Source of the DNA: Pegea sp. RAD2-039
Lineage: Eukaryota; Chordata; Thaliacea; Salpida; Salpidae
Reading direction: 5' to 3'
NCBI GenBank assembly: GCA_034620365.1
Contig: JAQGEQ010000363.1
Coordinates: forward strand, 1,860,001-1,924,000
DNA: 64,000 nucleotides
The translations under genes were made by a program, and so were the position numbers. This document shows, one piece after another, positions 1 to 41,953 of this stretch. Position 1 is the stretch's first letter. Every line of letters begins with the position of its first letter. The notes under the pieces were generated by a model. That model searched no databases, had not been told where the DNA came from, and was given only the letters and a program-made list of their open reading frames with translations.

Positions 1-61
1 TTAATTTCAAAATATACTTCCACCTTTTTTCTTGGTTATAAAAGTTTGATCTAATACTAAT

Positions 62-385
62 AACAACAAGACTTATTAATTGATAAGAAAAAATTTAAAC
101 TTTTTTTAAACATAATAAAACTTAACATAATTTGAAGTTATTTAAACTTCTTCAATTAGTTTATTAGTTATGATTTTTCCTTCTTTTATATTATCAACTT
201 TCTATACAATCGTTCACTGTAATATTCTTTGAGGAATACTAAAATGTATATTTTTTTTGTTTAATTATTCAAACTTAATACGTATTTTTTGATAACAACT
301 AGACTTATTTATTGATAAGAAAAAATTAAAAAAAATTTTTAACGCAATAAAACTTAACATAATTCGAAGTTGTTTAAACTTCTTT
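62..385. repeat. imperfect direct repeat, two ~92-bp copies
   Basis: Two copies, about 62-153 and 294-385, lie 232 bp apart. Both run from an AACAAC-TAGACTT-like start through GATAAGAAAAAA, AATAAAACTTAACATAATT and GAAGTT to TTTAAACTTCTT, with scattered mismatches. The rest of 1-1146 is AT-rich and shows no supported gene. It could be a diverged transposon end or a local duplication. Confidence 0.6.
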
Positions 386-1146
386 TATTGATTAATTAAC
401 AATTATTCAGCCCTTTCAACAAATCTTTGTGCTAAGTGTTAATACCTTCCATACTAAATAAGATTTACAAACAGATGACAAGTTATATAAAAAGTAATTT
501 ATTAGAAGTGAAACAAACACATTGAAGAGCTTTTTTGTAGATAGGAATATGTCAAGATTAGAATTTAAAATAAAGATACAGAAAACTTTGTAGAAGGCTC
601 CTAATTAATGATATGATACGAGATAGATTGAGATAACACCGACATGCTACAAGAAGCTGTCACGAAGATGTTCTGAAAATAATTTAAGGTTTGCAGTATT
701 TAGTTATTTGTATTAAATTGTCAAATATTTCAGATTTTTTGTGAAATTGATTCTATCAGTTAAAGTCTTCTTCTCTACTGAATGTTTTGAAGATGACTCT
801 CATCTAACACACTGAGATTTATGGAAAATGGAATTAATTTGATTTTCTATTTAATGGAACGCTTCTCTTTTTTATTCTACTTTTACAAACACAAAATAAT
901 TTGAAAAAATGTTTGTATCAACTTTCATTTATTCATTTCTATAACAAAACAATTTTTTAGAAACTTTATAATTCGTCAACTATAAAGCAAAACAGCGATA
1001 ATAAATTTGTTGAAACGTTTTATTGAATACTTCGTATATTATCTACAATAAAATAAATTTCTAAATCAAAAAACTGTTCAAGTTATACTAGCATTTTAAA
1101 AGCAAGCAATTATTCAATCATAAGAATCTCGTGAAGTAATCTTAAG

Positions 1147-1731
1147 ATGAACCTAAGAAGATTGGACAACCAAATTGAGAAGATGACTAAATGTTATTTT
1201 TTGGACTTTCATTTCATTTGCGAAACTTATTTGAGATTATCGTCGAATTATTTCCAAAACATTTTAGGATTCCATCTGGAATCAAAACAAATTCCTCCAC
1301 TAAATTCTACTAAACATAAGTTGAATAAACCACCAAAAAAGGACATGAAAGTTAAGAAGGCAGCTCAAAATGTTAAAGATAAAGTAGAGAAGAGGAAATC
1401 AATGATGAAGCAGGAAGTGAACAAGCTCTGAAATCAGTCCGAGAGAAAGTCAGTTTATAAAAGGGCTGGAAAAGCCACATTTAGAGTCAAAACCACCGAA
1501 AAAAATGAGCTCTAAAAATTTAGTAACTTGGAATACGATTTTCAAAGAATTTTTGAAAAGGTAGATTGCTAATAAAACGCTCAGACTTGAGGAAGATGAA
1601 TCCACTGAAGGTGAAAGCTCTGAAGATGATGAGCCACAAAAAAAGAAAACAAATGTTGGCAAAGGAACCCAAATTGTTAAAGATAAAAAAGAAGAAGAAA
1701 TCAATACTAAAGCAGAAAGTGACTCCTAATC
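1147..1731 (+). pseudogene. diverged copy of the array's acidic/basic protein gene, frameshifted
   Basis: The reading frame opens at 1147 (94 codons, Lys-rich tail) and is lost at 1431. It can be followed in shifted frames through 1465-1731, where NKTLRLEEDE and ESSEDDEPQKKK match the NKTLELEEDD and SSEDD blocks of the tandem units further right. An internal stop lies near 1561. No domain is recognised; the composition, alternating Lys/Arg-rich and Asp/Glu-rich stretches, is common in nuclear proteins. It differs from the array units by a longer acidic insert, and the CYPLYAHFL segment seen in the other units is missing. At about 1771 it abuts the first TERT fragment. Confidence 0.45.
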
Positions 1732-1774
1732 ACAAGTCTAGATTAGGTGATCAAAGGTGCAAACAGCCATAATT

Positions 1775-2600
1775 TAACTGCATAATGCTACGAATATCAT
1801 TATTTTCTTTTGGGAAAAACCTTGCACTGAATAACACAGCATCATCTGGTAAGAATTCATCAGCTATAGTCCAAAGACTTTTCTGAACTTTCAGCAAAGT
1901 AGCTCTGTTAATAAGAGCTGCCCAAACATCTTTGCGATAAAAGATAATCTTTTTTGATCTACAATTTGAGTTTGTAATATAAAAGGAGTTTTAATAAAGG
2001 CATGATCAAATTTGCAAACAACCATTCCATAAATATTTGAATCTTTTTTTTGTTACCATGTGCCCAAGGTATATTATGAAAATTAGTTTCAGAAATAAAA
2101 TGGTTAGTTTGAAAGGAATCAAACCTGTTGGAGTTAAGAAATAGTTTAAGTTTTTTGAGAAACCTCTTTTCATTACACTTTGAACCCCAAAAATAATGAA
2201 ATGGTAAAAGTCTTTTGATACAAGTTGTTAAAAAGAGGAAAACTTGATTGGTTTGACAGTGAATCTGAGTTAACTGTAGAATTTCTTTTTCCAGTTCACC
2301 ACGTTTTCTTGAATGATAAGAATTTAAAAATCTTTTCAAATTACCAATTTCTCCTAGATCTCGAAAATCCTCTGAAATTGGAGTATAAGATCTTAAAAGA
2401 AGATGAAATGAAATTCTTTTAAAATCTTTCATAAGAATAAAACAAATAGAAGAAATTCGTCGAAATCTGTTTTCTATTTTCCATGATTGTAACTCTATTG
2501 TAGAAATTAGTTGTTGTTGTCTTGTTCTACTTTTTAACTGAATAGAAAATTCACTTTTATTTAAAGAAACCTTTTTATAAAATATTTCATAATGAAATAT
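1775..2600 (-). pseudogene. TERT: TERT fragment, copy 1 (RNA-binding domain and T motif)
   Basis: Read on the minus strand this resembles telomerase reverse transcriptase from the RNA-binding domain into the start of the RT domain. It has the FWGSKCNEKRFLKKLKLFL block, the IPWAHGNKKK and MEWLFANLIMPLLKLL block, and in a shifted frame the T-motif half KKIIFYRK and the motif 1/2 segment FFPKENNDIRS. Homology ends at about 1775, before the catalytic Asp motifs A and C. This copy keeps the uninterrupted Arg-Ser-Lys-Lys codons of the T motif that interior copies have lost. However, an indel near 1980 (a shortened A-run) shifts the frame inside the T motif. The upstream frame ends at a stop at 2601-2603. 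Confidence 0.8.
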
Positions 2601-3214
2601 TTAAGTTGTTAAAACTCTACTTGCTAAGCCACATGAAGACAATTTTGCAAACAATTCCATTTCTTTATGATCTTTACGGCGTTTTTGGTTATTATGTATC
2701 ATAACAAATAGTTCTTAAAGTATATTCTGACATTTCATATCTTGAACTTATAGAAACTGAAAAAATCTTCAATAAGCTGCAAATACAATAAAAAGACTTT
2801 TAAACGACAAAGAACAAAATTAAAACATCTTTTTTATTTAATAAGATCAGATAGTTTTTCACATCGATTACTACAGTATTATAAAATTGGATTTTTACAT
2901 TTGCACTTGATACATTTAAAATAGTTTCAAACATTGTATAAAACGTTAAAATAATCATTATAAAGAGTAACCGCTAAAATAAAATCTTTGACAAAATGAA
3001 GCTTTTCAAAAAAATCTCTACAATATTCTTAATTACTGTCAATAAACCCATAAAAATCTTAAACTTTTGATAACAACACAAAAAATAATACACAAAATGA
3101 TAAAGTTTTTAGTTTTTAAAGTTTTCTAAAATTTTCCATTTATTATATTTAATGGTGAATTATTACTATCATAAAATATTAAATTAGAAAAAAAATTTAA
3201 ACTTTTGAGAGATA

Positions 3215-3830
3215 ATGTAGATAGTACATCAGAAGACTCAATGATAGTTTATAAAGCTCGTAAAACTTTGAAAAAGGGTCTATCAGTACCAGTCTAAAAG
3301 AAGAATGTTTTGAAAAGAAAGGTCCGTCTTAATAATAAAACGCTCGAACTTGAGGAAGATGATTCCTCTGAAGATGATATACCACAAGACCCTTTATGCT
3401 ATCCATTATATGCCCATTTCCTCAAAAAATGAAGGGTGCCTCAAATCGAGAGATCTGGGATGCAATAAAATGACATGATGATGAATTAAAACAGAGAAGA
3501 ATAGCAGATGAATCAATGAGAGTTAATGTAGGTAGTAGTCCAGAAGAAGAGGATGAAACTGATGATTCAGAAGATGGTGAAGCAAATCAAGTTAGGATTC
3601 AGAAAATAGTAAAGAGCTGAAAATGAAGCTGCACCTAAAGTTAGCTCTTGTAAAATTTATACCAGGAAAGTAAAAAGAACAGCTCAGAAATATAATCTCT
3701 GATAATTTTGAGTTAATGTCATTATATCCTGATGTAGAATAACCGGTTGTAGTTGGTAACTTGGATAATCAAGTAGGAATTTTAGAAACTTCTTTTTCAA
3801 ATAAATCTAAAGATGAAAATGAATTCTTTT
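3215..3830 (+). pseudogene. acidic-protein gene fragment, unit 2
   Basis: Same fragment as in the later units. An in-frame stop follows TSVPV just before 3310. One A is missing from the run near 3425, which shifts the frame, and AGACAT has become TGACAT, giving a stop near 3473. The 4004- rather than 4005-bp offset between 3310 and 7314 is explained by this single-base deletion. No promoter or start codon belongs to it. Confidence 0.7.
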
Positions 3831-3835
3831 TAAAC

Positions 3836-4664
3836 TTTAACTGCATAATGCTACGAAATCATTATTTTCTTTTGGGAAAAACCTTGCACTGAATAACACA
3901 GCATCATCTGGTAAGAATTCATCAGCTATAGTCCACAGACTTTTCTGAACATTCAGCAAAGTAGATCTGATAATGAGAGCTGCCCAAACTTCTTTGCGAT
4001 AAAAGATAATCTTGTTTTATCTACAATTTGAGTTTGTAATATAAAAAAAGAGTTTTAATAAAGGCATGATCAAATTTGCAAACAGCCATTCCATAAATAT
4101 TTGAATCTTTTTTTTGTTACCATGTGCCCAAGGTATATTATGAAAATTAGTTTCAGAAATAAAATGGTTAGTTTTAAAGGAATCAAACCTGTTGGAGTCA
4201 AGAAATAGTTTAAGCTTTTTGAGAAACCTCTTTTCATTACACTTTGAACCCCAAAAATAATGAAATGGTAAAAGTCTTTTGATACAAGATCTTAAAAAGA
4301 GGAAAACTTGATTGGTTTGACAGTGAAGCTGAGTTAACTGTAGAATTTCTTTTTCCAGTTCACCACGTTTTCTTGAATGATAAGAATTTAAAAATCTTTT
4401 CAAGTTACAAATCTCTACTGGATCTCGAAAATCCTCTGAAATTGGAGTATAAGATCTTAAAAGAGGATGAAATGAAATTCTTTTAAAATTTTTCATAAGA
4501 ATAAAACAAATAGAAGAAATTCGTCGAAATCTGTTTTCTATTTTCCATGATTGTAACTCTATTGTAGAAATTAGTTGTTGTTGTCTTGTTCTACTTTTTA
4601 ACTGAATAAAAAATTCACTTTTATTTAAAGAAAGCTTTTTATAAAATATTTCATAATCAAATAT
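3836..4664 (-). pseudogene. TERT: TERT fragment, copy 2
   Basis: The longest TERT-like frame in the array runs from a stop at 4665-4667 to a stop at 4017-4019. It contains in order: an Arg/Gln-rich helix (SRTRQQQLISTIELQSW), the LLPFHYFWGSKCNEKRF block, RFDSF, IPWAHGNKKK, and MEWLFANLIMPLLKLFFYIT. The last leads into the telomerase-specific T motif. Translation then stops in NCR-stop because GATC has become TATC beside the Lys-Lys codons. Past the stop, YRKEVW and RFFPKENND-like residues follow, with a one-base loss in the motif-2 codons. There are no motifs A-E, so no polymerase activity is possible. The open stretch just upstream on the minus strand (to about 4856) may be a further exon of unknown origin. 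Confidence 0.85.
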
Positions 4665-5286
4665 TTAAGCTGTTAAAACTCTACTTGCTAAGCCACATGA
4701 AGACAATTTTGCAAATATTCTTAACAATTCCATTTCTTTATATTCTTCACGGCATTTTGGTAAATATGTATCATAACAAATAGTTCTTAAAGTATATTCT
4801 AACATTTCATATCTTGAACTTATAGAAACTGAAAAAATTTTCAATAAGCTGCAAATACAATAAAAAGACTTTTAAACGATAAAGAACAAAATTAAAACAT
4901 CTTTTTTATTTAATAAGATCAGATAGTTTTTCACAACGATTACTACAGTATTGTAAAATTGGATTTTTACATTTGCACTTGATACATTTAAACTAGTTTC
5001 AAACTTTGTATAAAACGTTAAAATAATCATTATAAAGAGTAACGGCTAAAATAAAATCTTTGACAAAATGAAGCTTTTCAAAAAAATCTCTACAATATTC
5101 TTAGTTACTGTCAATAAACCCATAAAAATCTTAAACATTTGATAACAACACAAAATATAATACACAAAATGTTAAAGTTTCTAGTTTTTAAAGTTTTCTA
5201 AAATTTTCCATTTATTATATTTAATGGTGAATTATTACTATCATAAAATAATAAATTAGAAAAAAAAAAGTTAAACTTTTGAAAGA

Positions 5287-5900
5287 TAATGTAGATAGTA
5301 CATCAGAAGACTCAATGATAGTTTATAAGGATCATAAAACTTTGAAAAAGCGTACATCAGTACCAGTCTAAAAGAAGAATGTTTTGAAAAAAAAGGTTCG
5401 TCTTAATAATAAAACGCTCGAACTTGAGGAAGATGATTCCTCTGAAGATGATATACCACAAGACCCTTTGTGCTATCCATTATATGCCCATTTCCTCAAA
5501 AAAATGAAGGGTGCCACAAATCGAGAGATCTGGGATGCAATAAAAAGACATGATGATGAATTAAAACAGAGAAGAATAGCAGATGAATCAATGAGAGTTA
5601 ATGTAGGTAGTAGTCCAGAAGAAGAGGATGAAACTGATGATTCAGAAGATGGTGAAGCAAATCAAGTTAGGATTCAGAAAATAGTAAAGAGCTGAAAATG
5701 AAGCTGCACCTAAAGTTAGCTCTTGTAAAATTTATACCAGGAAAGTAAAAAGAACACCTCAAAAATATAATCTCTGATAATTTTGAGTTAATGTCATTAT
5801 ATCCTGATGTAGAATAACCGGTTGTAGTTGGTAACTTGGATAATCAAGTAGGAATTTTAGAAACTTCTTTTTCAGATAAATCTAAAGATGAAAATGAAAT
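5287..5900 (+). pseudogene. acidic-protein gene fragment, unit 3 (longest intact frame 5384-5695)
   Basis: An uninterrupted 103-codon frame encodes a Lys-rich start, an acidic block (EEDDSSEDD), a more hydrophobic segment (DPLCYPLYAHFLKKMKG) with NREIWDAIKRHDDEL, and a second acidic block (SSPEEEDETDDSEDGEA). No ATG starts it: the first codon is TTG. The same frame is closed upstream by a TAA after TSVPV, so this is a gene remnant and not a complete gene. After 5695 recognisable codons continue in another frame (KIYTRKVKR) and then again after a stop (SDNFELMSLYPDVE). I do not recognise the family. An identical 103-residue frame occurs at 9389-9700. Confidence 0.65.
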
Positions 5901-5910
5901 CTTTTTTATC

Positions 5911-6645
5911 TTTAACTGCATAATGCTACGAAATCATTATTTTCTTTTGGGAAAAACCTTGCACTGAATAACACAGCATCATCTGGTAAGAATTCATCAG
6001 CTATAGTCCACAGACTTTTCTGAACATTCAGCAAAGTAGATCTGATAATGAGAGCTGCCCAAACTTCTTTGCGATAAAAGATAATCTTGTTTTATCTACA
6101 ATTTGAGTTTGTAATATAAAAAAAGAGTTTTAATAAAGGCATGATCAAATTTGCAAACAGCTATTCCATAAATATTTGAATCTTTTTTTTGTTACCATGT
6201 GCCCAAGGTATATTATGAAAATTAGTTTCAGAAATAAAATGGTTAGTTTGAAAGGAATCAAACCTGTTGGAGTCAAGAAATAGTTTAAGCTTTTTGAGAA
6301 ACCTCTTTTCATTACACTTTGAACCCCAAAAATAATGAAATGGTAAAAGTCTTTTGATACAAGTTCTTAAAAAGAGGAAAACTTGATTGGTTTGACAGTG
6401 AATCTGAGTTAACTGTAGAATTTCTTTTTCCAGTTCACCACGTTTTCTAGAATGATAAGAATTAAAAATCTTTTCAAATTACAAATCTCTCCTAGATCTC
6501 GAAAATCCTCTGAAATTGGAGTATAATATCTTAAAAGAAGATGAAATGAAATTCTTTTAAAATCTTTCATAAGAATAAAACAAAATAGAAGAAATTCGTC
6601 GAAATCTGTTTTCTATTTTCCATGATTGTAACTCTAATGTAGAAA
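5911..6645 (-). pseudogene. TERT: TERT fragment, copy 3
   Basis: Short unit type: the ~145-bp upstream segment is absent. It shares the T-motif stop and the motif-2 deletion of copies 2 and 4-6. In addition a T is missing at about 6463 (GAATTAAAAATC where copy 2 has GAATTTAAAAATC), which shifts the frame upstream of the WGSKCNEKRF block. Confidence 0.8.
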
Positions 6646-7216
6646 ATATTTTTCTTTTCTTTATTTCTTTATGATAATTATGGCATTTTGGTAATTATGT
6701 ATTATATCAAATAGTTCTTAAAGTATATTCTGACATTTCATATCTTGAACTTATAGAAACTGAAAAAATCTTCAATAAGCTGCAAATACAATAAAAAGAC
6801 TTTTAAACGATAAAGAATAAAATTAAAATATCTTTTTTATTTAATAAGATCAGATAGTTTTTCACAACGATTACTACAGTATTGTAAAATTGGATTTTTA
6901 CATTTGCACTTGATACATTTAAAATAGTTTCAAACTTTATATAAAACGTAAAAATAATCATTATAAAGAGTAACGGCTGAAATAAAGACTTTGACAAATT
7001 AAAGCTTTTCAAAAAAATCTTTAAAATATTCTTAGTTACTGTCAGTAAACCCATAAAAATCTTAAACTTTTGATAACAACACAAAAAATAATATACAAAA
7101 CGCTAAAGTTTCTAGTTTTTAAAGTTTTCTAAAATTTTCCATTTATTATATTTAATGGTGAATTATTACTATAATAAAATAATAAATTAGAAAAAAAAAT
7201 TTAAACTTTTGAGAGA

Positions 7217-7830
7217 TAATGTAGGTAGTACATCAGAAGACTCAATGATAGTTTATAAAGATCGTATAACTTTGAAAAAGCGTACATCAGTGCAAGTCTA
7301 AAAGAAAAATGTTTTGAAAAAAAAGGTACGTCTTAATAATAAAACGCTCAAACTTGAGGAAGATGATTCCTCTGAAGATGATATACCACAAGACCCTTTG
7401 TGCTATCCATTATATGCCCATTTCCTCAAAAAAATGAAGGGTGCCACAAATCAAGAGATCTGGGATGCAATAAAAAGACATGATGATGAATTAAAACAAA
7501 GAAGAATAGCAGATGAATCAATGAGAGTTAATGTAGGTAGTAGTCCAGAAGAAGAGGATGAAACTGATGATTCAGAAGATGGTGAAGCAAATCAAGTTAG
7601 GATTCAGAAAATAGTAAAGAGTTGAAAATGAAGCTGCACCTAAAGTTAGCTCTTGTAAAATTTATACCAGGAAAGTAAAAAGAACAGCTCAGAAATATAA
7701 TCTCTGATAATTTTGAGTTAATGTCATTATATCCTGATGTAGAATAACCGGTTGTAGTTGGTAACTTGGATAATCAAGTAGGAATTTTAGAAACTTCTTT
7801 TTCAAATAAATCTAAAGATGAAAATGAATT
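7217..7830 (+). pseudogene. acidic-protein gene fragment, unit 4 (frame 7314-7625)
   Basis: 103 codons, identical to unit 3 except Glu-to-Lys in NKTLKLEE and Arg-to-Gln in NQEIW. It has the same TTG first codon and the same upstream in-frame stop. It is nearly identical to the unit at 11319. Confidence 0.65.
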
Positions 7831-7840
7831 CTTTTTAAAC

Positions 7841-8669
7841 TTTAACTGCATAATGCTACGAAATCATTATTTTCTTTTGGGAAAAACCTTGCACTGAATA
7901 ACACAGCATCATCTGGTAAGAATTCATCAGCTATAGTCCACAGACTTTTCTGAACATTCAGCAAAGTAGATCTGATAATGAGAGCTGCCCAAACTTCTTT
8001 GCGATAAAAGATAATCTTGTTTTATCTACAATTTGAGTTTGTAATATAAAAAAAGAGTTTTAATAAAGGCATGATCAAATTTGCAAACAGCCATTCCATA
8101 AATATTTGAATCTTTTTTTTGTTACCATGTGCCCAAGGTATATTATGAAAATTAGTTTCAGAAATAAAATGGTTAGTTTTAAAGGAATCAAACCTGTTGG
8201 AGTCAAGAAATAGTTTAAGCTTTTTGAGAAACCTCTTTTCATTACACTTTGAACCCCAAAAATAATGAAATGGTAAAAGTCTTTTGATACAAGATCTTAA
8301 AAAGAGGAAAACTTGATTGGTTTGACAGTGAAGCTGAGTTAACTATAGAATTTCTTTTTCCAGTTCACCACGTTTTCTTGAATGATAAGAATTTAAAAAT
8401 CTTTTCAAGTTACAAATCTCTACTGGATCTCGAAAATCCTCTGAAATTGGAGTATAAGATCTTAAAAGAGGATGAAATGAAATTCTTTTAAAATTTTTCA
8501 TAAGAATAAAACAAATAGAAGAAATTCGTCGAAATCTGTTTTCTATTTTCCATGATTGTAACTCTATTGTAGAAATTAGTTGTTGTTGTCTTGTTCTACT
8601 TTTTAACTGAATAAAAAATTCACTTTTATTTAAAGAAAGCTTTTTATAAAATATTTCATAATCAAATAT
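7841..8669 (-). pseudogene. TERT: TERT fragment, copy 4
   Basis: Positioned exactly 4005 bp after copy 2 and nearly identical to it, including the T-motif stop and the one-base motif-2 deletion. It carries the long (2075-bp) unit form. One visible difference from copy 2 is GTTAACTATAG for GTTAACTGTAG near 8340. Confidence 0.85.
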
Positions 8670-9291
8670 TTAAGCTGTTAAAACTCTACTTGCTAAGCCA
8701 CATGAAGACAATTTTGCAAATATTCTTAACAATTCCATTTCTTTATATTCTTCACGGCATTTTGGTAAATATGTATCATAACAAATAGTTCTTAAAGTAT
8801 ATTCTAACATTTCATATCTTGAACTTATAGAAACTGAAAAAATTTTCAATAAGCTGCAAATACAATAAAAAGACTTTTAAACGATAAAGAACAAAATTAA
8901 AACATCTTTTTTATTTAATAAGATCAGATAGTTTTTCACAACGATTACTACAGTATTGTAAAATTGGATTTTTACATTTGCACTTGATACATTTAAACTA
9001 GTTTCAAACTTTGTATAAAACGTTAAAATAATCATTATAAAGAGTAACGGCTAAAATAAAATCTTTGACAAAATGAAGCTTTTCAAAAAAATCTCTACAA
9101 TATTCTTAGTTACTGTCAATAAACCCATAAAAATCTTAAACATTTGATAACAACACAAAATATAATACACAAAATGTTAAAGTTTCTAGTTTTTAAAGTT
9201 TTCTAAAATTTTCCATTTATTATATTTAATGGTGAATTATTACTATCATAAAATAATAAATTAGAAAAAAAAAAGTTAAACTTTTGAAAGA

Positions 9292-9905
9292 TAATGTAGA
9301 TAGTACATCAGAAGACTCAATGATAGTTTATAAGGATCATAAAACTTTGAAAAAGCGTACATCAGTACCAGTCTAAAAGAAGAATGTTTTGAAAAAAAAG
9401 GTTCGTCTTAATAATAAAACGCTCGAACTTGAGGAAGATGATTCCTCTGAAGATGATATACCACAAGACCCTTTGTGCTATCCATTATATGCCCATTTCC
9501 TCAAAAAAATGAAGGGTGCCACAAATCGAGAGATCTGGGATGCAATAAAAAGACATGATGATGAATTAAAACAGAGAAGAATAGCAGATGAATCAATGAG
9601 AGTTAATGTAGGTAGTAGTCCAGAAGAAGAGGATGAAACTGATGATTCAGAAGATGGTGAAGCAAATCAAGTTAGGATTCAGAAAATAGTAAAGAGCTGA
9701 AAATGAAGCTGCACCTAAAGTTAGCTCTTGTAAAATTTATACCAGGAAAGTAAAAAGAACACCTCAAAAATATAATCTCTGATAATTTTGAGTTAATGTC
9801 ATTATATCCTGATGTAGAATAACCGGTTGTAGTTGGTAACTTGGATAATCAAGTAGGAATTTTAGAAACTTCTTTTTCAGATAAATCTAAAGATGAAAAT
9901 GAAAT
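9292..9905 (+). pseudogene. acidic-protein gene fragment, unit 5 (frame 9389-9700)
   Basis: Its 103-residue frame is identical to that at 5384-5695, 4005 bp away. Same missing start codon and upstream stop. Confidence 0.65.
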
Positions 9906-9915
9906 CTTTTTTATC

Positions 9916-10650
9916 TTTAACTGCATAATGCTACGAAATCATTATTTTCTTTTGGGAAAAACCTTGCACTGAATAACACAGCATCATCTGGTAAGAATTC
10001 ATCAGCTATAGTCCAAAGACCTTTCTGAACTTTCAGCAAAGTAGCTCTGTTAATAAGAGTTGTCCAAACTTCTTTGCGATAAAAGATAATCTTGTTTTAT
10101 CTACAATTTGAGTTTGTAATATAAAAAAAGAGTTTTAATAAAGGCATGATCAAATTTGCAAACAGCTATTCCATAAATATTTGAATCTTTTTTTTGTTAC
10201 CATGTGCCCAAGGTATATTATGAAAATTAGTTTCAGAAATAAAATGGTTAGTTTGAAAGGAATCAAACCTGTTGGAGTCAAGAAATAGTTTAAGCTTTTT
10301 GAGAAACCTCTTTTCATTACACTTTGAACCCCAAAAATAATGAAATGGTAAAAGTCTTTTGATACAAGTTCTTAAAAAGAGGAAAACTTGATTGGTTTGA
10401 CAGTGAATCTGAGTTAACTGTAGAATTTCTTTTTCCAGTTCACCACGTTTTCTAGAATGATAAGAATTAAAAATCTTTTCAAATTACAAATCTCTCCTAG
10501 ATCTCGAAAATCCTCTGAAATTGGAGTATAATATCTTAAAAGAAGATGAAATGAAATTCTTTTAAAATCTTTCATAAGAATAAAACAAAATAGAAGAAAT
10601 TCGTCGAGATCTGTTTTCTATTTTCCATGATTGTAACTCTAATGTAGAAA
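9916..10650 (-). pseudogene. TERT: TERT fragment, copy 5, with a patch resembling copy 1
   Basis: Overall a copy of the short-unit fragment at 5911, but 10,011-10,068 carries the variants of copy 1 (CCAAAGAC, AACTTTCAG, GTAGCTCTGTTAATAAGAG), not those of copies 2-4, 6 and 7 (CCACAGAC, AACATTCAG, GTAGATCTGATAATGAGAG). The interior T-motif stop is retained on either side of the patch. Confidence 0.8.
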
Positions 10651-11221
10651 ATATTTTTCTTTTCTTTATTTCTTTATGATAATTATGGCATTTTGGTAAT
10701 TATGTATTATATCAAATAGTTCTTAAAGTATATTCTGACATTTCATATCTTGAACTTATAGAAACTGAAAAAATCTTCAATAAGCTGCAAATACAATAAA
10801 AAGACTTTTAAACGATAAAGAATAAAATTAAAATATCTTTTTTATTTAATAAGATCAGATAGTTTTTCACAACGATTACTACAGTATTGTAAAATTGGAT
10901 TTTTACATTTGCACTTGATACATTTAAAATAGTTTCAAACTTTATATAAAACGTAAAAATAATCATTATAAAGAGTAACGGCTGAAATAAAGACTTTGAC
11001 AAATTAAAGCTTTTCAAAAAAATCTTTAAAATATTCTTAGTTACTGTCAGTAAACCCATAAAAATCTTAAACTTTTGATAACAACACAAAAAATAATATA
11101 CAAAACGCTAAAGTTTCTAGTTTTTAAAGTTTTCTAAAATTTTCCATTTATTATATTTAATGGTGAATTATTACTATAATAAAATAATAAATTAGAAGAA
11201 AAAAGTTAAACTTTTGAGAGA

Positions 11222-11835
11222 TAATGTAGGTAGTACATCAGAAGACTCAATGATAGTTTATAAAGATCGTATAACTTTGAAAAAGCGTACATCAGTGCAA
11301 GTCTAAAAGAAAAATGTTTTGAAAAAAAAGGTACGTCTTAATAATAAAACGCTCAAACTTGAGGAAGATGATTCCTCTGAAGATGATATACCACAAGACC
11401 CTTTGTGCTATCCATTATATGCCCATTTCCTCAAAAAAATGAAGGGTGCCACAAATCAAGAGATCTGGGATGCAATAAAAAGATATGATGATGAATTAAA
11501 ACAGAGAAGAATAGCAGATGAATCAATGAGAGTTAATGTAGGTAGTAGTCCAGAAGAAGAGGATGAAACTGATGATTCAGAAGATGGTGAAGCAAATCAA
11601 GTTAGGATTCAGAAAATAGTAAAGAGTTGAAAATGAAGCTGCACCTAAAGTTAGCTCTTGTAAAATTTATACCAGGAAAGTAAAAAGAACAGCTCAGAAA
11701 TATAATCTCTGATAATTTTGAGTTAATGTCATTATATCCTGATGTAGAATAACCGGTTGTAGTTGGTAACTTGGATAATCAAGTAGGAATTTTAGAAACT
11801 TCTTTTTCAAATAAATCTAAAGATGAAAATGAATT
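11222..11835 (+). pseudogene. acidic-protein gene fragment, unit 6 (frame 11319-11630)
   Basis: 103 codons, differing from unit 4 by a single His-to-Tyr change (KRYDDEL). TTG first codon, with a stop upstream in the same frame. Confidence 0.65.
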
Positions 11836-11845
11836 CTTTTTAAAC

Positions 11846-12580
11846 TTTAACTGCATAATGCTACGAAATCATTATTTTCTTTTGGGAAAAACCTTGCACT
11901 GAATAACACAGCATCATCTGGTAAGAATTCATCAGCTATAGTCCACAGACTTTTCTGAACATTCAGCAAAGTAGATCTGATAATGAGAGCTGCCCAAACT
12001 TCTTTGCGATAAAAGATAATCTTGTTTTATCTACAATTTGAGTTTGTAATATAAAAAAAGAGTTTTAATAAAGGCATGATCAAATTTGCAAACAGCCATT
12101 CCATAAATATTTGAATCTTTTTTTTGTTACCATGTGCCCAAGGTATATTATGAAAATTAGTTTCAGAAATAAAATGGTTAGTTTTAAAGGAATCAAACCT
12201 GTTGGAGTCAAGAAATAGTTTAAGCTTTTTGAGAAACCTCTTTTCATTACACTTTGAACCCCAAAAATAATGAAATGGTAAAAGTCTTTTGATACAAGAT
12301 CTTAAAAAGAGGAAAACTTGATTGGTTTGACAGTGAAGCTGAGTTAACTATAGAATTTCTTTTTCCAGTTCACCACGTTTTCTTGAATGATAAGAATTTA
12401 AAAATCTTTTCAAATTACAAATCTCTACTAGATCTCGAAAATTCTCTGAAATTGGCGCATAAGATCTTAAAAGAGGATGAAATGAAATTCTTTTAAAATC
12501 TTTCATAAGAATAAAACAAAATAGAAGAATTTCGTCGAAATCTGTTTTCTATTTTCCATGATTGTAACTCTATTGTAGAA
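11846..12580 (-). pseudogene. TERT: TERT fragment, copy 6
   Basis: It follows copies 2 and 4 closely up to about 12,400. It then switches to the short-unit form, with the ~145-bp segment absent and the AGAAAATATTTTTC junction near 12,575. It keeps the interior T-motif stop and the one-base motif-2 deletion. Confidence 0.8.
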
Positions 12581-13152
12581 AATATTTTTCTTTTCTTTAT
12601 TTCTTTATGATCTTTATGGCATTTTGGTAATTATGTATCATAACAAATAGTTCTTTAAGTAAATTCTGACATTTCATATCTTGAACTTATAGAAACTGAA
12701 AAAATTTTCAATAAGCTGCAAATACAATAAAAAGACTTTTAAACGATAAAGAATAAAATTAAAACATCTTTTTTATTTAATAAGATCAGATAGTTTTTCA
12801 CAACGATTACTACAGTATTGTAAAATTGGATTTTTACATTTGCACTTGATACATTTAAAATAGTTTCAAACTTTATATAAAACGTAAAAATAATCATTAT
12901 AAAGAGTAAAGGCTAAAATAAAATCTTTGACAAATTAAAGCTTTTCAAAAAAATCTCTACAATATTCTTAATTACGGTCAATAAACCCATAAAAATCTTA
13001 AACTTTTGATAACAACACAAAAAATAATACACAAAATGTTAAAGTTTCTAGTTTTTTAAGTTTTCTAAAATTTTCCATTTATTATATTTAATGGTGAATT
13101 ATTACTATCATAAAATAATAAATTAGAAAAAAAAAGTTAAACTTTTGAGAGA

Positions 13153-13765
13153 TAATGTAGGTAGTACATCAGAAGACTCAATGATAGTTTATAAAGATCA
13201 TAAAACTTTGAAAATGCGTACATCAGTACCAGTCTAAAAGAAGAATGTTTTAAAAAAAAAGGTCCGTCTTAATAATAAAACGCTCGAACTTGAGGAAGAT
13301 GATTCCTCTGAAGATGATAGACCACTGGACCCTTTGTGCTATCCATTATATGCCCATTTCCTCAAAAAAATGAAGGGCGCCACAAATCAAGAGATCTGGG
13401 ATGCAATAAAAAGACATGATGATGAATTAAAACGGAGAAGAATAGCAGATGAATCAATGAGAGTTAATGTAGGTAGTAGTCCAGAAGAAGAGGATGAAAC
13501 TGATGATTCAGAAGATGGTGAAGCAAATCAAGTTAGGATTCAGAAAATAGTAAAGAGTTGAAAATGAAGCTGCACCTAAAGTTAGCTCTTGTAAAATTTA
13601 TACCAGGAAAGTAAAAAGAACAGCTCAAAAATATAATCTCTGATAATTTTGAGTTAATGTCATTATATCCTGATGTAGAATAACCGGCTGTAGTTGGTAA
13701 CTTGGATAATAAAGTAAGAATTTTAGAAACTTCTTTTTCAAATAAATCTAAAGATGAAAATGAAT
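13153..13765 (+). pseudogene. acidic-protein gene fragment, unit 7
   Basis: The last unit, slightly diverged: IPQD has become RPLD, KQRR has become KRRR, and TTG has become TTA at 13250. The frame is open to a stop at 13559-13561. The following shifted frames are as in the other units. Confidence 0.6.
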
Positions 13766-13774
13766 TCTTTTTAA

Positions 13775-14509
13775 TCTTTAACTGCATAATGCTACGAATA
13801 TCATTATTTTCTTTTGGGAAAAACCTTGCACTGAATAACACAGCATCATCTGGTAAGAATTCATCAGCTATAGTCCACAGACTTTTCTGAACATTCAGCA
13901 AAGTAGATCTGATAATGAGAGCTGCCCAAACTTCTTTGCGATAAAAGATAATCTTTTTTGATCTACAATTTGAGTTTGTAATATAAAAAAAGAGTTTTAA
14001 TAAAGGCATGATCAAATTTGCAAACAACCATTCCATAAATATTTGAATCTTTTTTTTGTTACCATGTGCCCAAGGTATATTATGAAAATTAGTTTCAGAA
14101 ATAAAATGGTTAGTTTGAAAGGAATCAAACCTGTTGGAGTTAAGAAATAGTTTAAGTTTTTTGAGAAACCTCTTTTCATTACACTCTGAACCCCAAAAAT
14201 AATGAAATGGTAAAAGTCTTTTGATACAAGTTATTAAAAAGAGGAAAACTTGATTGGTTTGGCAGTGAAGCTGAGTTAACTGTAGAATTTCTTTTTCCAG
14301 TTCACCACGTTTTCTTGAATGATAAGAATTAAAAATCTTCTCAAATTACAAATCTCTTCTAGATCTCGAAAATCCTCTGAAATTGGAGTATAAGATCTTA
14401 AAAGAAGATGAAATAAAATTCTTTTAAAATTCTTCATAAGAATAAAACAAATAGAAGAAACTCGTCGAAATCTGTTTTCTATTTTCCATGATTGTAACTC
14501 TATTGTAGA
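13775..14509 (-). pseudogene. TERT: TERT fragment, copy 7 (edge copy, T motif and motif 1/2 intact)
   Basis: The best-preserved 3' part. From an ATG at 14036 the frame reads MEWLFANLIMPLLKLFFYIT, then KKIIFYRKEVW (T motif) and SARFFPKENNDIRSIMQLK (motifs 1 and 2), without the stop or the one-base deletion found in copies 2-6. It then runs out of TERT homology and continues antisense through the acidic-gene fragment to 13533. Upstream, a missing T at about 14,329 shifts the frame. Catalytic motifs A and C are absent. Confidence 0.85.
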
Positions 14510-14639
14510 AAATATTTTTCTTTTCTTTATTTCTTTATGATCTTTATGGCGTTTTGGTAATTATGTATCATAACAAATATCTTTTATTAAAACGCTAAAG
14601 TTTCTAGTTTTTAAAGTTTTCTAAAATTTTCCAAATTTT

Positions 14640-15533
14640 TAATATTTAATGGTGAAATATTACTATCATAAAATCAAAAAGTTAGAAAAACAGTTTAAAG
14701 TTTATAATAATTGATTTTATTATAATTAAGTTAATAATAATTGATTTTACGAAAATATTTTCCGTATAAATATTTATTTAAATATTGAAACTGCAAACTG
14801 AATTAAAGTAAAAACATCGATTAACTTGTAACTTGAAGAAAATCATTAAAAAGTTATTAAAACCTTAAATCTTGAAAGTAAATTTGAATCTAAATGCAGA
14901 GCTAATCATAAAACGTATAACATTAGCGTTAATAACTTGAAATCTTTTACAGGCTTCATTTTGTACTCCTTGTTTCACAAACTTTTTAGTAAAAAGCCAT
15001 AATTTCGAATATTATATATAATACCGTGATATTTTTAAAAATAAATTTTCAGAAATCAATTTAGGTTGTAGATTAATAAAGAGCTTCAATTTTACGATAT
15101 TTCTTGTAATTTATTTATTTAGCTTTTCTTAATTTGGGTTGATATTCAAATCAGTAGTTATTAATTAAGAAATCTAATCGTGGTTGGTGTTACCGCTTCG
15201 ATACACGGATCGATAAGTTAAATTAAGTCCGCCAACAACCTTCATTTTTCTCTTACAATTATACAAATAAATTATTATTTCAAACTTTCAAAAACATTAA
15301 GAGAATTTTTATGTCGACTTCTGAAGATTAATAATTTTGGTAAAGCTTTTGTTATAGCTTTTATCGTATACGAAGTAAGTCAGATTTATGTGTTTACTGA
15401 CAGTTACAAAATAAACACTGGAATATTTTAAAAAGTACTTTAATGTTATGCATCAGAGCTTCACTAATTACAGCAAGATTAAAATAAATGAAATTCGAGT
15501 TTTTTAAATTGCCGCCAATCAACTTCAAAGTTT
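14640..15533. other. intergenic spacer, no gene seen
   Basis: AT-rich sequence between the array and the INCENP fragment. The only structured stretch is 15,182-15,240, GC-richer, with loosely inverted GGTTGGTG and CGCCAACAACC ends. Its significance is unknown. Confidence 0.5.
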
Positions 15534-15934
15534 TTAAAATCTCTTCTTCTGCAGGGAAGGAGGAGTCTTCTTCCAACATGCCGAGCTTGTTCGCTTTATA
15601 TATCTTTCTTCAGTTTTATTAAACAGCTTTGTCGGATCAACAAATCTATTCTTAGTATTCCGTAAGATTGTAGCAATATTAGGAGGATGAATATGTTGCA
15701 AAAACATCTGGCGTTTCAACAACTTTCCTGAAGCAGAAAAGTTGAAAATATTTCTAGAAAAGAATCTCGAGTACCTTTCGCCCAATTAGGAACAGTTTTT
15801 CTGGGAGCATCTTCATCATCAGTACTATCATCTGAATTGAGATCGTAGATATTGTAATCTTCATTAGTTGATGGAAGAAGTACTCGATCTTCATGTTTTG
15901 GTGTCATATCGTAGCTGCTGATGTTCGATTCATC
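15534..15934 (-). CDS. INCENP: INCENP-like protein, C-terminal IN-box exons (partial)
   Basis: Two exons, 15,775-15,934 and 15,534-15,727, are separated by a 47-bp GT-AG intron and join in frame (GCG AAA G|GA AAG). The product has DLNSDDSTDDEDAPRK, then PNWAKG, HPPNIATI, VDPTKLF and RYIKRTSSACW, ending 13 residues later. This is the order of the INCENP IN-box, which binds and activates Aurora B; the TSS motif is the kinase's phosphorylation site in known INCENPs. Upstream exons (inner-centromere targeting, coiled coil) are not visible up to 17,039, where a gene starts on the other strand. It may therefore be a 3' fragment, or its other exons may lie far away. The acceptor at 15,935 is weak (TGTAAAAG). 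Confidence 0.8.
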
Positions 15935-17038
15935 CTTTTACAAAACAACCGATAAAACGCCGTCATTTCAATCAACTATAAGAACTTACTATCTCGTTAT
16001 TAGTTGCATTCATGTAAACTACGATTTCAACTATCAACAAAACATAACTCTACTTTTTCTGTCTTACAATTTGTATAAGCTGTGTAATTTTTACAAAACA
16101 TTTTAAGAACCAAATCTTTTTATTAAATGTTACGAAGGTTTCATACTTGTTAATTTAATACTTTAATATAATTTTTTTTCTGCAGCCAGGGTAGTTTGAG
16201 TACGTCCAGAACTAAAGGCAGTTAGATCAGTTTATCTACTCCTAATTCTTTGAAAAACTTTTGCTGATAATTATAAGCTAATAAAACGTCTTTAGTCTGG
16301 AACTTAATCATTAACAGTTTTTCTAACAATAAATGAACTGTTTTTAATATAATATCTTTTTATAACAAGTAATGAGCAAATATATTAAATACTAGATTAC
16401 TACTACCCGCTTACTACTATTTTATATAGCTATGCATTTGTTTATAAGGAGCATGTTAACGTTTACACTTATTTATTATTATTTGAAAAATACATCATAA
16501 AAACTAAAGTATAGCTAAACGATTTATAAGTTTTATTTAAGTTTGAGTATTTAATTTTGATATTACTTATTCGTTTGTCTTATTAGTTCTTTTTTAAAGT
16601 TTGGTTAGTTTTATATATATATTTTTTTTAATTAATGTCAATTTAGAATGACTACTAGAAGGAAAGAATTTTTTAAACTGCCTTTTAATGATTACTTTTG
16701 CCGTTATACATCTTAGAAATTTTCAGCTCAAAGTTAAAACTTATATTTAGAAATGAAACAAAATTGTTGCTTAAATAACTTTTTTAAGCTCTAACTTGGT
16801 TTTTTTCTCGCTTTGTCAGAACTTTTGATTATACATTAAGTTGCATTATATTTATTGTAAAACTATTCAAGCAAAACTCGATACTTTTTTTTGAAACTGA
16901 TTGTGTTTAATGTTCTATTATAAAATATATACTCAAAAACTGAGATCTATTTAGAAGTTAAAAAAAGGTCATTTAAAAGCTTATCAGTAACCAAAAAACT
17001 ATTTAGTGAATAGAAAATAATTTCAAAGAATAATAAAA
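15935..17038. other. intergenic, no supported gene
   Basis: AT-rich. I looked on the minus strand for the Glu/Lys/Arg-rich coiled coil expected upstream of an INCENP IN-box and found none. It includes whatever promoter serves the gene starting at 17,039, but I see no convincing core element. Confidence 0.5.
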
Positions 17039-19144
17039 ATGTTATATTTTGTATTATTTATACTTTTCTGCAACTTAAAAAAATCACATGGACTAAAAGG
17101 TAAACTTTAGTTTAAGTCATAGGATACATATGTTATGATGAGTGTAAATAAAACTTCATTAAACATATTTAGGAGAAATAATAAAAAGATCGTTTTGGGT
17201 GTTTTTAATGAACTAGATTTGTTATTAGATAAATGAAAACCCCTTTTGTGCAAGTTTTCTCAAATATAAATCAAATATTGATAAAAGAAATAAGTTTTAA
17301 AACTTTTTTTCTTTTATATAAAATGTTTTTAACACATTTAAAGGGCAAATATTATTATAGATATTTAATTAAATGTTTAATAAGTATTTGAATGACTTTT
17401 ACATGTCTGAATTTTTACCTGACTTGTTGAATTTTGTTATTTCAATATTTTTTTAATAATCTGTTTATTTTGGTATCTTTATTTATTATTTATTTTAGTA
17501 AAGGTATATAGTTGAATTTTTTATCAAATGTTTTCAAAATTTCAGGGTCACTTTTCTTCTTTTACTGGTTAGTTTGACTTTTACTTAGTTAAAAAATTTA
17601 ATTTTTAGACAACTTTAATAAAGTTATAAATTTTTAAGCCATAATTTCTTGAGGCTAAACAACTTGTTTTTAAGAAGATTTAAAAAAAATCTTTCAGTTT
17701 TTTATCTTAATCTCTATCAATAATTCATGATTTCTTTTTACTTTCTATTCTTATAATTTTGAAAATTACTTTTTAGGAAAATTAATTTGTAAAATGTATC
17801 CTGGTTCCAAAGTCTTTAAATTAAAAGTCCCTGATGATAAAAAATCATGGGATGTAAAATTTGATTCATATGATCCTCCGAATTATACTGCTGCACATGT
17901 TTTAAGAAATCCTGTATGGGCAGATATTGATGTTCCGTGAGTAATTTCCTTTTTATCAAAATTGAAAATATTTTTAAGGTATTTCGATAATTATTCAAAT
18001 TTATTATTTTCAAGAAATATTTATATATTTTTTTATCATTTTTATTTATATGTTTAAATAATTTTTTCAAAGACAAATGAAAAAAATGCTAAATTATAAC
18101 GCAATGGATAAATCTATAAACCGAATAAGCCATTTTGGAACTTATAAGGTAAATCTCTGTTCTGTTAACTCTGAATTTTGAATTTTAAATTCTTAGATAG
18201 CTGGAATGGTCCCTCTGAACCCTTTGGGTAGAACAGGTATTAGTGGTCGTGGTCTATTAGGTAGATGGGGACCAAACCACGCAGCTGACCCGATTGTGAG
18301 CAGGTAACATAAGTTTTTGTTAAGAAAATTAGGATAAGCGAAAAAATATTTAATTTTTGTCTTAAATAAAAAAATGATAAAAGTTTTTAATGATGAATTT
18401 CGAATAAATCTCAAATATTAAAAAAGAAGAATTTATGAAACGATTTTTATTTGATAATAAAATTGAATAATTTAATAATGTGAAATAATTTCTTAAAAAT
18501 TCTTTAGATGGAAACGAAACCATAAAAATGAAATTGTAAAAGATGCGAGAAGTGGAAAACAAATCTTGCAAATTGTCGTAATCCAAAGAAAAGACAACGG
18601 AAATTGGGCCATACCAGGGGTAGAACCAAGTTATACTTGAGACAAACAATTACAAGTGTTTTTAGGGCATGGTTGACCCTGGTGAGAAGGTCTCAACAAC
18701 TTTGAGAAGAGAATTCGGTGAAGAAGCTCTTGATAGTTTGAGTTTGAACGAATATGAAAAAAAGAAGTTGCATGAATCAATTTCAAATGTCTTCAATAAA
18801 GAAGTTCCGGTGAAAATTTCATTTTTTTCAACAATAATCTCATTAAAGATCTGAAATAGGTGTACAAAGGAGTTGTTAAAGACGGTAGAAACACTGATAA
18901 TGCGTGGATTGAAACTGTAGCTTGTAGTTTTCATGATGAAACAGGTTTCAAATTAATTTCTTTTATTTTTCAAATATTTTCATCAACTTCAATTGTAGGT
19001 GAAAGTGTTGGGCAATTTTCGTTGGCAGCTGGAGATGATGCAGCAAAAGTGAAATGGGTAGATGCATGTGAAGACATGAAGTTACATGGAAGCCATAATG
19101 AGCTTGTCTCAAAAGTTTGTCAACTTCTTGGTGCTCATTGGTAG
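17039..19144 (+). CDS. NUDT9: NUDT9-type ADP-ribose pyrophosphatase, 8 exons, 296 aa
   Basis: Exons 17039-17099, 17777-17936, 18073-18148, 18197-18303, 18508-18619, 18666-18809, 18860-18944 and 18999-19144 join in frame with GT-AG introns, three of them only 46-54 bp. The family hydrolyses ADP-ribose to AMP and ribose 5-phosphate. Diagnostic blocks are YPGSKV near residue 28, [15 protein letters not shown], and the Nudix box starting near residue 172 (GGMVDPGE, then REFGEE with all catalytic glutamates). After it come RNTDNAW and [18 protein letters not shown] is the form associated with active enzymes, unlike the degenerate box of human TRPM2. Exon 1 encodes a hydrophobic leader ([10 protein letters not shown]) that looks like a secretory signal, not a mitochondrial presequence. 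The join to exon 2 is by frame and splice sites only. Confidence 0.93.
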
Positions 19145-39654: not shown

Positions 39655-40215
39655 TTTATTCATTTTATTTATTACAATAAATGCGAAGGAGGGTACCTGG
39701 AGAGAGCACCTCTCGCTAACATACATTCTGACATATAATACCTATTATATATATTTAAGTTGAAAATATAGAAAGAAAAAGATGTAACACATGGCATTTC
39801 AGTAGTCCTCAAAGCATATAATAGTGAATAATTACATAGAATGTTCATAATATAAAAAAGGAAAAAATCACAGCTTAGAAATGACAATGTTGGCAATATT
39901 AAAACGTTTCAACTTCTTTTTTAAACTACGCCAGCGACTCCGACATGACAATGTCTGATGGCAGCTGGTTCCATATACTAATTATGCCGTATGAGAAATA
40001 TTTGCTCTGACCAATGTACCAGGTGATATAGGCTTTTAAGATGTAATCTGTGTCATCTGAGCTGATATAACTTGAGGGAAGGACTAATGAAAAAGAAATC
40101 ATCAAACTGAAGGTCAACTAAATTGTGGATAATTTTAAAAATAAGAATTAAGTCGTATTTAATCCGTCGAATTTCCAAAGTATCTAAAGTACTAAAAGAA
40201 GCTGAGACGATGTTT
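39655..40215 (-). mobile_element. LINE 3' fragment (end of ORF2 plus 3' UTR)
   Basis: Minus-strand codons LDTLEIRRIKYDLILIFKII at the 5' side are followed by FDDFFF and then YFSYGIISIWNQLPSDIV. These are the conserved C-terminal blocks of CR1/Jockey-type ORF2 (the LExRRxxxDLxxxYKI and RxxxxWNxLP motifs). An in-frame stop follows (SLA-stop) and a 3' UTR ends in GAGAGGTGCTCTCTCC, GGTACCCTCC, ATTTATTGTAATAAATAAA. The 3' end is shared with the fragment at 24,345. 5'-truncated and inactive. Confidence 0.75.
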
Positions 40216-41953
40216 ATAACTATTAAATAATTATAAAGTTGTAAACTAAAAAATTATCTATGTAAACTACTGTCGTGTGTTGAATGTCCTCAAATTTCCA
40301 TTGACTCCACCAATTATCTCGAAAAACTTCTTAGGTTCTTTTTGAAGTAATTTAAAAACGAAAATCAAATAAGAATCAAATTGATAAATTTTGGTTTCGT
40401 AATATGACCTTAAAATATATTATCTAAATAATTTCATTATTCATTTTTAGTACATGTGATGATAAAATCAGATCAAATTTGAAACTCAAGCTCAATTACT
40501 CGAAGTGAGTTGCCAAAAATGATTTGATAATTATTGAATAGTAAAGAAAGAAAATTATATTTTCAAAAGTAGAACAAAATTTCTTTTAAAGATTACTTTT
40601 GTGAGAACAATTATAAATTAAAATTTGCTTTTTTAGATGCAAGAAACACTAATCTAGTTAAATTGATTTTTGAATAAATGAAAGTGGTTTTAAAATATAA
40701 TTTTTATATTTATGAGACTTACAAATTTTGAGAATTTTGAGAATGAGAATACAAAAATTACAATTTAATCATCAAATAAAAAAAATAAATATTATGCAAT
40801 ATTTTTATAAAAGTATAAATTAACTTCAAAAGGTCAATCATTAAAAAAAGTTTAAACATTTTGAAATTGTAGAAAAAACATGAACGACTTTTTTCATCAA
40901 GATGACTAGACAGAATACAAAGAGATTTTCAAAAATTTAATTTTTGACAAACATGTTGAACAACAACATTTTTCTTTAACAGCTGTCCATTGTTAGTAAA
41001 AACAGTTTTTTGATTTAGTTTGAGAAATTTTAATAGTATCTAAACTGAAATCCCTAGAACCATCTATTTGAAGAAGTTTTTGTTCAAAAATAAAGTTCTT
41101 TTATAGCCATAGGCAAATGAAGTAATAGTTAAATTTAATTTAACCAAAAAAAGTAGTTCTAATTTTAATAATTTTAAGAAATATATTTAGTAAGAACTGA
41201 AATGCTACAGCAGAAAGAACCTAAAATTTCAATGAAGTGATAATTATTATAAGTTTAAAAAGATAAAAATTTGAGGTAGTAAGAAAACGAAAACTAAGAA
41301 GTTATATTCAATTCACTTTAATGTTTAAAAGAAGAAATTTTGAATATTGTCATAAATCATAGGTTAATCATTTAATTTTAACTTAAATCGATTAATCTAG
41401 TTATTATTTAATATTCAAAAGTCTGTAGAATGTTCTTTGTTGTAAATAAAGCAGTTTACTTTTAATAAAATTGTTGAGATTTCATAAATTTTGAACTAAA
41501 AAAAAATCATAAATTAAGATGTAAAGCTTTACACATTTTATAGTTTGTATTTGAAAAAGTTATATTTGTAAAAATAGTTTTTAGATTTGAGAAAAACTTT
41601 TTTAAGGTGTTTTTACTGACCTAAGAAACGTTCAGAGCCCGGGGCAAAGACAAACTGAATGCAAAGCTGAAGCTCTCAGAGCGAAGTTAGTTTGCGAAAA
41701 ATGGCAAGATATTTTTAAGAAAGTCCTGAACCAACTTTATCTAATGAGTTTTTTCAATGAAAAATTTAAGTGATGCTGATAATATGTTTCGTTCTTCTGA
41801 TTACTTTCAGACAATCTTAAGTTTAAATGTTTATTGTTATGTTTGAAATACTTTATTAAAGTTTTCTGTTTATTGAAAGACTTTTTTTGAAGAAATATTG
41901 AAATTTGATTTGAAGTAAAGTTTGAAAAATTAAAGAATTATTTTCACAGGAAA
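40216..41953. other. intergenic, nothing supported
   Basis: AT-rich flank leading to the protease gene. A short GC-richer patch (CAGAGCCCGGGGC, 41,634-41,646) lies about 310 bp before the start codon. No recognisable TATA box at a plausible distance. Confidence 0.45.

Follow-up and report, generated by a model that had tools for sequence, protein, structure and literature searches.

A stretch of 64,000 nucleotides from Pegea sp. RAD2-039 (Salpidae), comprising positions C21:1860001-1924000 and referred to here as the window, carries towards its left end seven direct, minus-strand copies of the 5' half of the gene for telomerase reverse transcriptase (TERT), arranged in tandem from position ~1773 to 14640. 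C21 denotes contig JAQGEQ010000363.1 of the assembly GCA_034620365.1, which totals 105.7 Mb in 387 contigs, and the window is AT-rich throughout, with 17.5-35.4% G+C per kb. A repeat comparison over window 1-18000 gave start-to-start spacings of the TERT fragments of 2064, 2075, 1930, 2075, 1930 and 1932 bp, defining two unit lengths, type A of 2075 bp and type B of ~1930 bp, the latter with a 144-bp deletion inside the TERT sequence that is present in copies 3, 5, 6 and 7. The array is a tandem repeat with higher-order structure, in which head-to-tail units form nested, near-identical multi-unit repeats, and no inverted repeats were detected in window 1-18000 with a 15-base seed and a 60-base minimum.

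The TERT identity of the copies was established with the Pfam profile PF12009 (Telomerase_RBD, cut-off 25 bits), the copies being read through internal stops where these are present. All seven score above the cut-off in a profile search of the genome contigs, with 46.4 (plus a second piece of 25.9), 84.1, 77.8, 84.1, 79, 84.1 and 82.3 bits for copies 1 to 7, respectively, and for the 270-aa frame of copy 7 five of five distinct PDB sequences matched at E ≤ 0.001 are named telomerase reverse transcriptase (best E 1.3e-13). The only intact TERT found in the genome lies on the minus strand of the same contig, ~375 kb to the right of the array (C21:2249598-2251838), as a 769-aa open frame with matches to Telomerase_RBD (82 bits) and RVT_1 (49.1 bits), and it aligns over the T motif and the reverse transcriptase motifs with PDB chain 7qxa_A, which is human TERT. 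DNA identity between the copies and this gene is 94.8-96.5%. In the numbering of the 769-aa frame, the last codon is 389 in copies 2-7 and 345 in copy 1, whereas the motif A aspartate is residue 413 as counted on the alignment with 7qxa_A; every array copy therefore ends before motif A and lacks the catalytic motifs A-C. A sequence-only reading of this DNA had claimed seven tandem minus-strand TERT copies ending before motif A, both of which are borne out, had proposed that the full TERT gene be found and aligned, as is now done, and had named a missing TERT profile match or a better match to another reverse transcriptase as grounds against itself, neither of which was seen. A mobile reverse-transcriptase element was rejected as the source, since only PDB telomerase chains and the RBD family of telomerase were matched.

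Similarity to the TERT locus is more extensive than the sequence-only reading had noted, as ~400 bp lying 5' of the open frame are present in the copies and sequence matching the TERT region extends past both ends of the array. Copies 1-6 match 401 bp upstream of the TERT frame, most of which is absent from copy 7. Immediately left of the window, C21:1856349-1859828 corresponds to C21:2245073-2248574 at 96.3% identity, and both array flanks match flanks of the intact gene (Table 1). The matching flanks therefore indicate that a genomic segment was duplicated and speak against a retrocopy or a retroelement. Copied parental genomic flanks are combined here with a disabled frame, the properties of an unprocessed (duplicated) pseudogene, while a processed pseudogene, the retrocopy of a TERT mRNA, was ruled out because the 5' sequence outside the frame and both flanks were copied. 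Some flank pieces are also duplicated beside TERT itself (C21:2236100-2237571 versus 2247102-2248574, 97.4%) and consequently the exact parent of each array flank piece is ambiguous. The surroundings of the array look prone to duplication. Among the best 40 of 100 candidates, a repeat at window 571-712, part of the TERT 3' flank, recurs every 3.4-3.8 kb at C21:1818192-1839963 on the plus strand and at C21:1735527-1746958 on the minus strand. Tandem copies of up to ~5 kb, 94-95% identical and without an open frame of at least 110 aa, are present at locus L062.

The remainder of each unit is a patchwork segment of ~500-620 bp, found between the copied TERT 3' flank and copy 1 and between all later copies, whose pieces match a gene at C177:146809-148083 with 76-81% identity, though in permuted order. 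In six units, a piece resembling the C-terminal part of the C177 protein is joined directly to a piece resembling its N-terminal part, and a plus-strand 107-aa frame, open in five of the six, is that junction; a TAA lies upstream of it in the same frame in all six units and breaks the C177 homology. The sequence-only reading had regarded this segment as an antisense partner always paired with the TERT fragment. A recurring segment does exist, but it is simply the rest of the tandem unit and, being a permuted patchwork with a TAA common to six units, it is therefore poor evidence for a gene acting against TERT. Neither the C177 protein nor the 107-aa frame matched Pfam at E ≤ 1, and in PDB the partner had three hits, all weak and all to ribosomal proteins (best E 0.14), from which no name can be assigned. 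The C177 protein is rich in lysine and serine with an acidic tail and, together with a shorter relative at C49:72212-72340, constitutes a protein family with an N-terminal block around PLDPLF and GASNREIW/GATNREIW.

Table 1. The TERT-fragment array and its flanks, in window coordinates; percentages are DNA identities and the partner is the C177-related segment.
Feature	Position	Strand	Remarks
Left flank of duplicated block	1..397	+	1-291 = C21:2237749-2238037 near TERT, 96%
Copy of intact TERT 3' flank	416..1150	+	L009 2800-3535 = C21:2248799-2249534, 95.4%
Degenerate C177-gene-related (partner) pieces, order differing from C177 gene	1151..1772	+	
TERT fragment copy 1	1773..3200	-	Last codon 345; 96.5% to TERT; 9-bp and 2-bp deletions, 1-bp insertion
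Partner segment 1	3201..3704	+	C177 C-end-like piece joined to N-end-like piece; broken frame, internal TGA
TERT fragment copy 2	3705..5272	-	Type A, without 144-bp deletion; 96.4% to TERT
Partner segment 2	5273..5779	+	107-aa open frame 5372-5695
TERT fragment copy 3	5780..7205	-	Type B, 144-bp internal deletion; 94.9% to TERT
Partner segment 3	7206..7709	+	107-aa open frame 7302-7625
TERT fragment copy 4	7710..9277	-	Type A; 1567/1568 bases identical to copy 2
Partner segment 4	9278..9784	+	107-aa open frame 9377-9700
TERT fragment copy 5	9785..11210	-	Type B; 99.2% to copy 3; 48-bp tract mostly TERT/copy-1-like
Partner segment 5	11211..11714	+	107-aa open frame 11307-11630
TERT fragment copy 6	11715..13141	-	Type B, some changes in common with type A; 95.4% to TERT
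Partner segment 6	13142..13645	+	107-aa open frame 13238-13561
TERT fragment copy 7	13646..14640	-	270-aa open frame 13533-14345; 144-bp and ~374-bp deletions; 95.2% to TERT
Copy of TERT 5' side	14589..15166	+	C21:2252199-2252754, 86%; left end overlaps end of copy 7
Copy of C21:2257900-2258687	15221..16013	+	93.5%; right end of matching block

Tandem duplications and higher-order repeats evolve by unequal exchange and gene conversion, and traces consistent with both are present in the array. Identity reaches 1567 of 1568 bases (99.94%) between copies 2 and 4, and 1415 of 1426 (99.23%) between copies 3 and 5, which suggests that the 4,005-bp pair of A and B units was duplicated recently. Units 3 and 5 differ at 13 positions, eight of them within 48 bp, a degree of clustering reached in none of 100,000 random placements. 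At these eight sites, unit 5 carries the TERT base at five (four of which are also the base of copy 1), a base found in copy 1 only at one and private bases at two, suggesting that, once the recent 4-kb duplication had taken place, the 48-bp tract was converted from a TERT-like donor, either TERT or one of the other copies. Copy 6 is a mosaic of the kind expected from exchange between units: 17 of its changes recur only in copies 3 and 5, and another 7 only in copies 2 and 4. Relative to TERT, 25 changes are common to units 2-6 over 1423 comparable columns. Units 2 and 3 diverge by 3.5% over the TERT coding sequence, by 5.0% over the 5' part and by 3.0% over the partner; the corresponding values for units 2 and 6 are 2.4%, 3.0% and 2.8%. 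The 144-bp gap is read as a plain deletion; a spliced-out intron was ruled out as its source, since the aligned ends of the deleted TERT segment are not GT...AG and, in copy 3, the copy displayed, the sequence to its left is altered.

Coding capacity has been degraded in all seven copies, each of which has 3-8 stop changes relative to TERT and at least one frameshifting indel. The ratio of nonsynonymous to synonymous substitution rates (Ka/Ks) against TERT ranges from 0.96 to 1.35 per copy. When each distinct coding change is counted once, 15 are synonymous, 65 nonsynonymous and 12 create stops, the numbers expected in the absence of constraint being 21.1, 65.7 and 5.2 (p 0.17 for synonymous changes). 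Judged by these stops, frameshifting indels and Ka/Ks values, protein-level constraint on the copies is not seen, and conserved protein-coding copies were ruled out by Ka/Ks and stops.

TERT sequence is otherwise scarce in the genome. Searches, whose counts are lower bounds as only the best candidates were scored, returned nine Telomerase_RBD matches, namely the intact gene and eight pieces forming the seven copies, and at least 19 matches to the TERT protein, 18 on C21 and one, weak, on C258. Outside C21, no dispersed near copies of TERT occur among the best candidates scored, and one old relic is present at C258:1709950-1710314, where an RNA-binding-domain piece (72% DNA identity) stands beside a piece of the C-terminal part; judging by this relic, TERT sequence has probably been duplicated more than once. 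No convincing frame of at least 55 aa that might encode the N-terminal TERT domain in an exon further upstream was seen between TERT and the next gene, in an inspection that included no domain profile search. Exons that by eye resemble argininosuccinate synthase lie upstream of TERT on the same strand (L009 8121-9413). Exact four-fold TTAGGG occurs in the first 60 bases of C108 and C125 and as runs on C139 and C342, with no other contig among the matches listed; 81 forward and 5 reverse occurrences were counted against 0 in the reversed control, which fits ordinary telomerase telomeres.

Elsewhere in the window, open frames were recognized by eye as resembling a COQ2-like protein and a TGF-beta-type ligand. 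A repeat at 39656-40240 is common to loci L009, L026, L028 and L061, the L061 stretch overlapping a frame that by eye resembles the reverse transcriptase of a long interspersed nuclear element (LINE).

Combined, these results very probably identify the array as a tandemly amplified, unprocessed (genomic) TERT pseudogene, and its copies are most likely dead gene pieces. A rearranged second copy of the block around the only intact TERT found lies ~375 kb off along the contig; the catalytic 3' half of TERT is missing from it, and the permuted C177-related patchwork occupies that position. The unit so composed, the TERT 5' half with ~400 bp of 5' sequence and the patchwork, would then have been multiplied head to tail, presumably by unequal exchange, to seven TERT copies, followed by the recent 4,005-bp A+B duplication and, subsequently, by the conversion-like tract in copy 5. 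The array would have no role at the protein level and may persist as neutral, recombining DNA. A neutral satellite built from gene pieces was one of the options raised by the sequence-only reading, and the Ka/Ks values, stops and change counts support it.

Several observations weigh against the pseudogene account. Divergence is uneven along the unit, ranging from 0.0 to 15.2% per 100-bp bin and being highest beside the 144-bp deletion. Open stretches of 270, 213 and 215 aa remain in copies 7, 1 and 2, respectively, and the 107-aa partner frame is still open in five of six units. Between copies 1-6 and TERT, 82 of 1168 coding sites are variable compared with 43 of 401 in the 5' part (Fisher p 0.024), and with the stretch around the 144-bp deletion excluded the difference is 58 of 968 versus 43 of 401 (p 0.003), a lower coding variation that a wholly even neutral clock does not predict. 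Because Ka/Ks is ~1, protein constraint on the copies cannot account for it; it could result from constraint on the real TERT lineage, from a faster-changing 5' side, or from constraint on RNA pairing. Both the succession of events and the assignment of a parent to each flank piece are our inference, and window 14589-15166 matches the TERT 5' side at 86%, below the other flank matches. In addition, copy number and the near-identical 4-kb repeat have the assembly as their sole source.

Alternatively, in line with the other option of the sequence-only reading, the array could be a source of antisense or small RNAs, either small interfering RNAs (siRNAs) or Piwi-interacting RNAs (piRNAs), capable of modulating or silencing the real TERT gene in the manner of the Drosophila repeats Su(Ste) and AT-chX, a reading we consider very unlikely. 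It is equally improbable that the array lowers or times TERT in trans by way of high-identity antisense or piRNA-type RNAs, with telomerase dosage set in part by the number of array units. Within the TERT fragment, 1254 of 1549 21-mers are unchanged in the array, TERT and the partner frame lie on opposite strands in each unit with the TERT 5' ends head to head with the partner, so that transcripts could meet, the genome has 10 Piwi-domain matches, at three places, and a smaller share of sites varies in the TERT coding part than in the 5' part, as conservation of RNA pairing could also give. The 94.8-96.5% identity between array and TERT is also above both figures for vasa in PMC7874207, where the 76% identity of AT-chX piRNAs is reported to be insufficient for repression, while the vasa of another species, at >90% identity, is reported to be silenced in hybrids. 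However, high identity follows from recent duplication without selection, the lower coding divergence is equally explicable by constraint on the real gene, and inverted repeats of at least 60 bases are absent from window 1-18000. The head-to-head layout, high identity and Piwi matches would allow antisense or small RNAs but would look alike without function.

The 213-270-aa open frames with an RNA-binding domain in copies 1, 2 and 7, and the ~400 bp of 5' sequence carried in six copies, are what might be expected if some copies make a truncated TERT, reduced to the RNA-binding domain, which would compete for telomerase RNA with the complete enzyme; with stop changes and frameshifting indels in all seven copies, Ka/Ks of ~1, and the longest frame in copy 7, which lacks most of the 5' sequence, we judge this highly improbable. 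An assembly artefact in the array or in its repeat number, for which the near-identity of copies 2 and 4 and the draft state of a genome in 387 contigs could be cited, is very unlikely, as the copies, the pairs 2/4 and 3/5 aside, differ mutually and from TERT by 2.7-5.2%, units 3 and 5 are separated by 13 differences, indel sets differ among copies and the array is placed between matching flanks on a 2.64-Mb contig. Common ancestry of TERT and Penelope-like elements, described in PMC3846280, could point to a mobile reverse-transcriptase element of that kind, or a TERT mRNA retrocopy, as the origin of the copies. This is scarcely credible, given that PDB telomerase chains and the RBD family of telomerase account for the matches, that sequence 5' of the frame was copied and genomic flanks are matched by the block around the copies, and that the best candidates scored include no dispersed near copies, the C258 relic alone lying outside C21.

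With respect to known systems, partial TERT copies are described in plants, including Nicotiana TERT_D and two copies on one Mimulus scaffold (PMC7916837). Both those plant paralogs and pseudogenes and the present copies are extra, partly truncated and frame-broken sequences beside a working gene, but the plant copies are described there as single or paired, whereas the array, in an animal genome, contains seven head-to-tail copies of one 5' segment joined to pieces related to another gene. Like Su(Ste) and AT-chX, the array consists of tandem repeats similar to a host gene with the potential for antisense RNA; unlike them, reported piRNA sources (PMC7874207), it is known from its DNA. One property of gene-targeting piRNA or siRNA clusters, tandem repeats highly similar to a host gene, is found here. 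The claim of the sequence-only reading that tandem amplification of a TERT fragment is not known to have been described stands within the open-access literature, partial copies being known in plants (PMC7916837): no tandem TERT-fragment array was found there, most subscription papers falling outside that scope, and nothing was found in the open-access literature on gene-fragment satellites together with piRNA.

Compared with higher-order repeats in general, the array has the same alternating unit types, recent two-unit duplication and conversion-like tract, but it is short, with seven copies, and its unit is built from gene pieces. It provides a well-resolved example of a gene region that was duplicated and shortened, fused to sequence related to a second gene and then amplified, with array copies that still exchange sequence. 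Seven fragments of such high identity to the gene could mislead TERT annotation or quantitative PCR in this species. If it were true that RNA from the array acts on TERT, this would be the first case known to us of telomerase control by a gene-derived repeat cluster.

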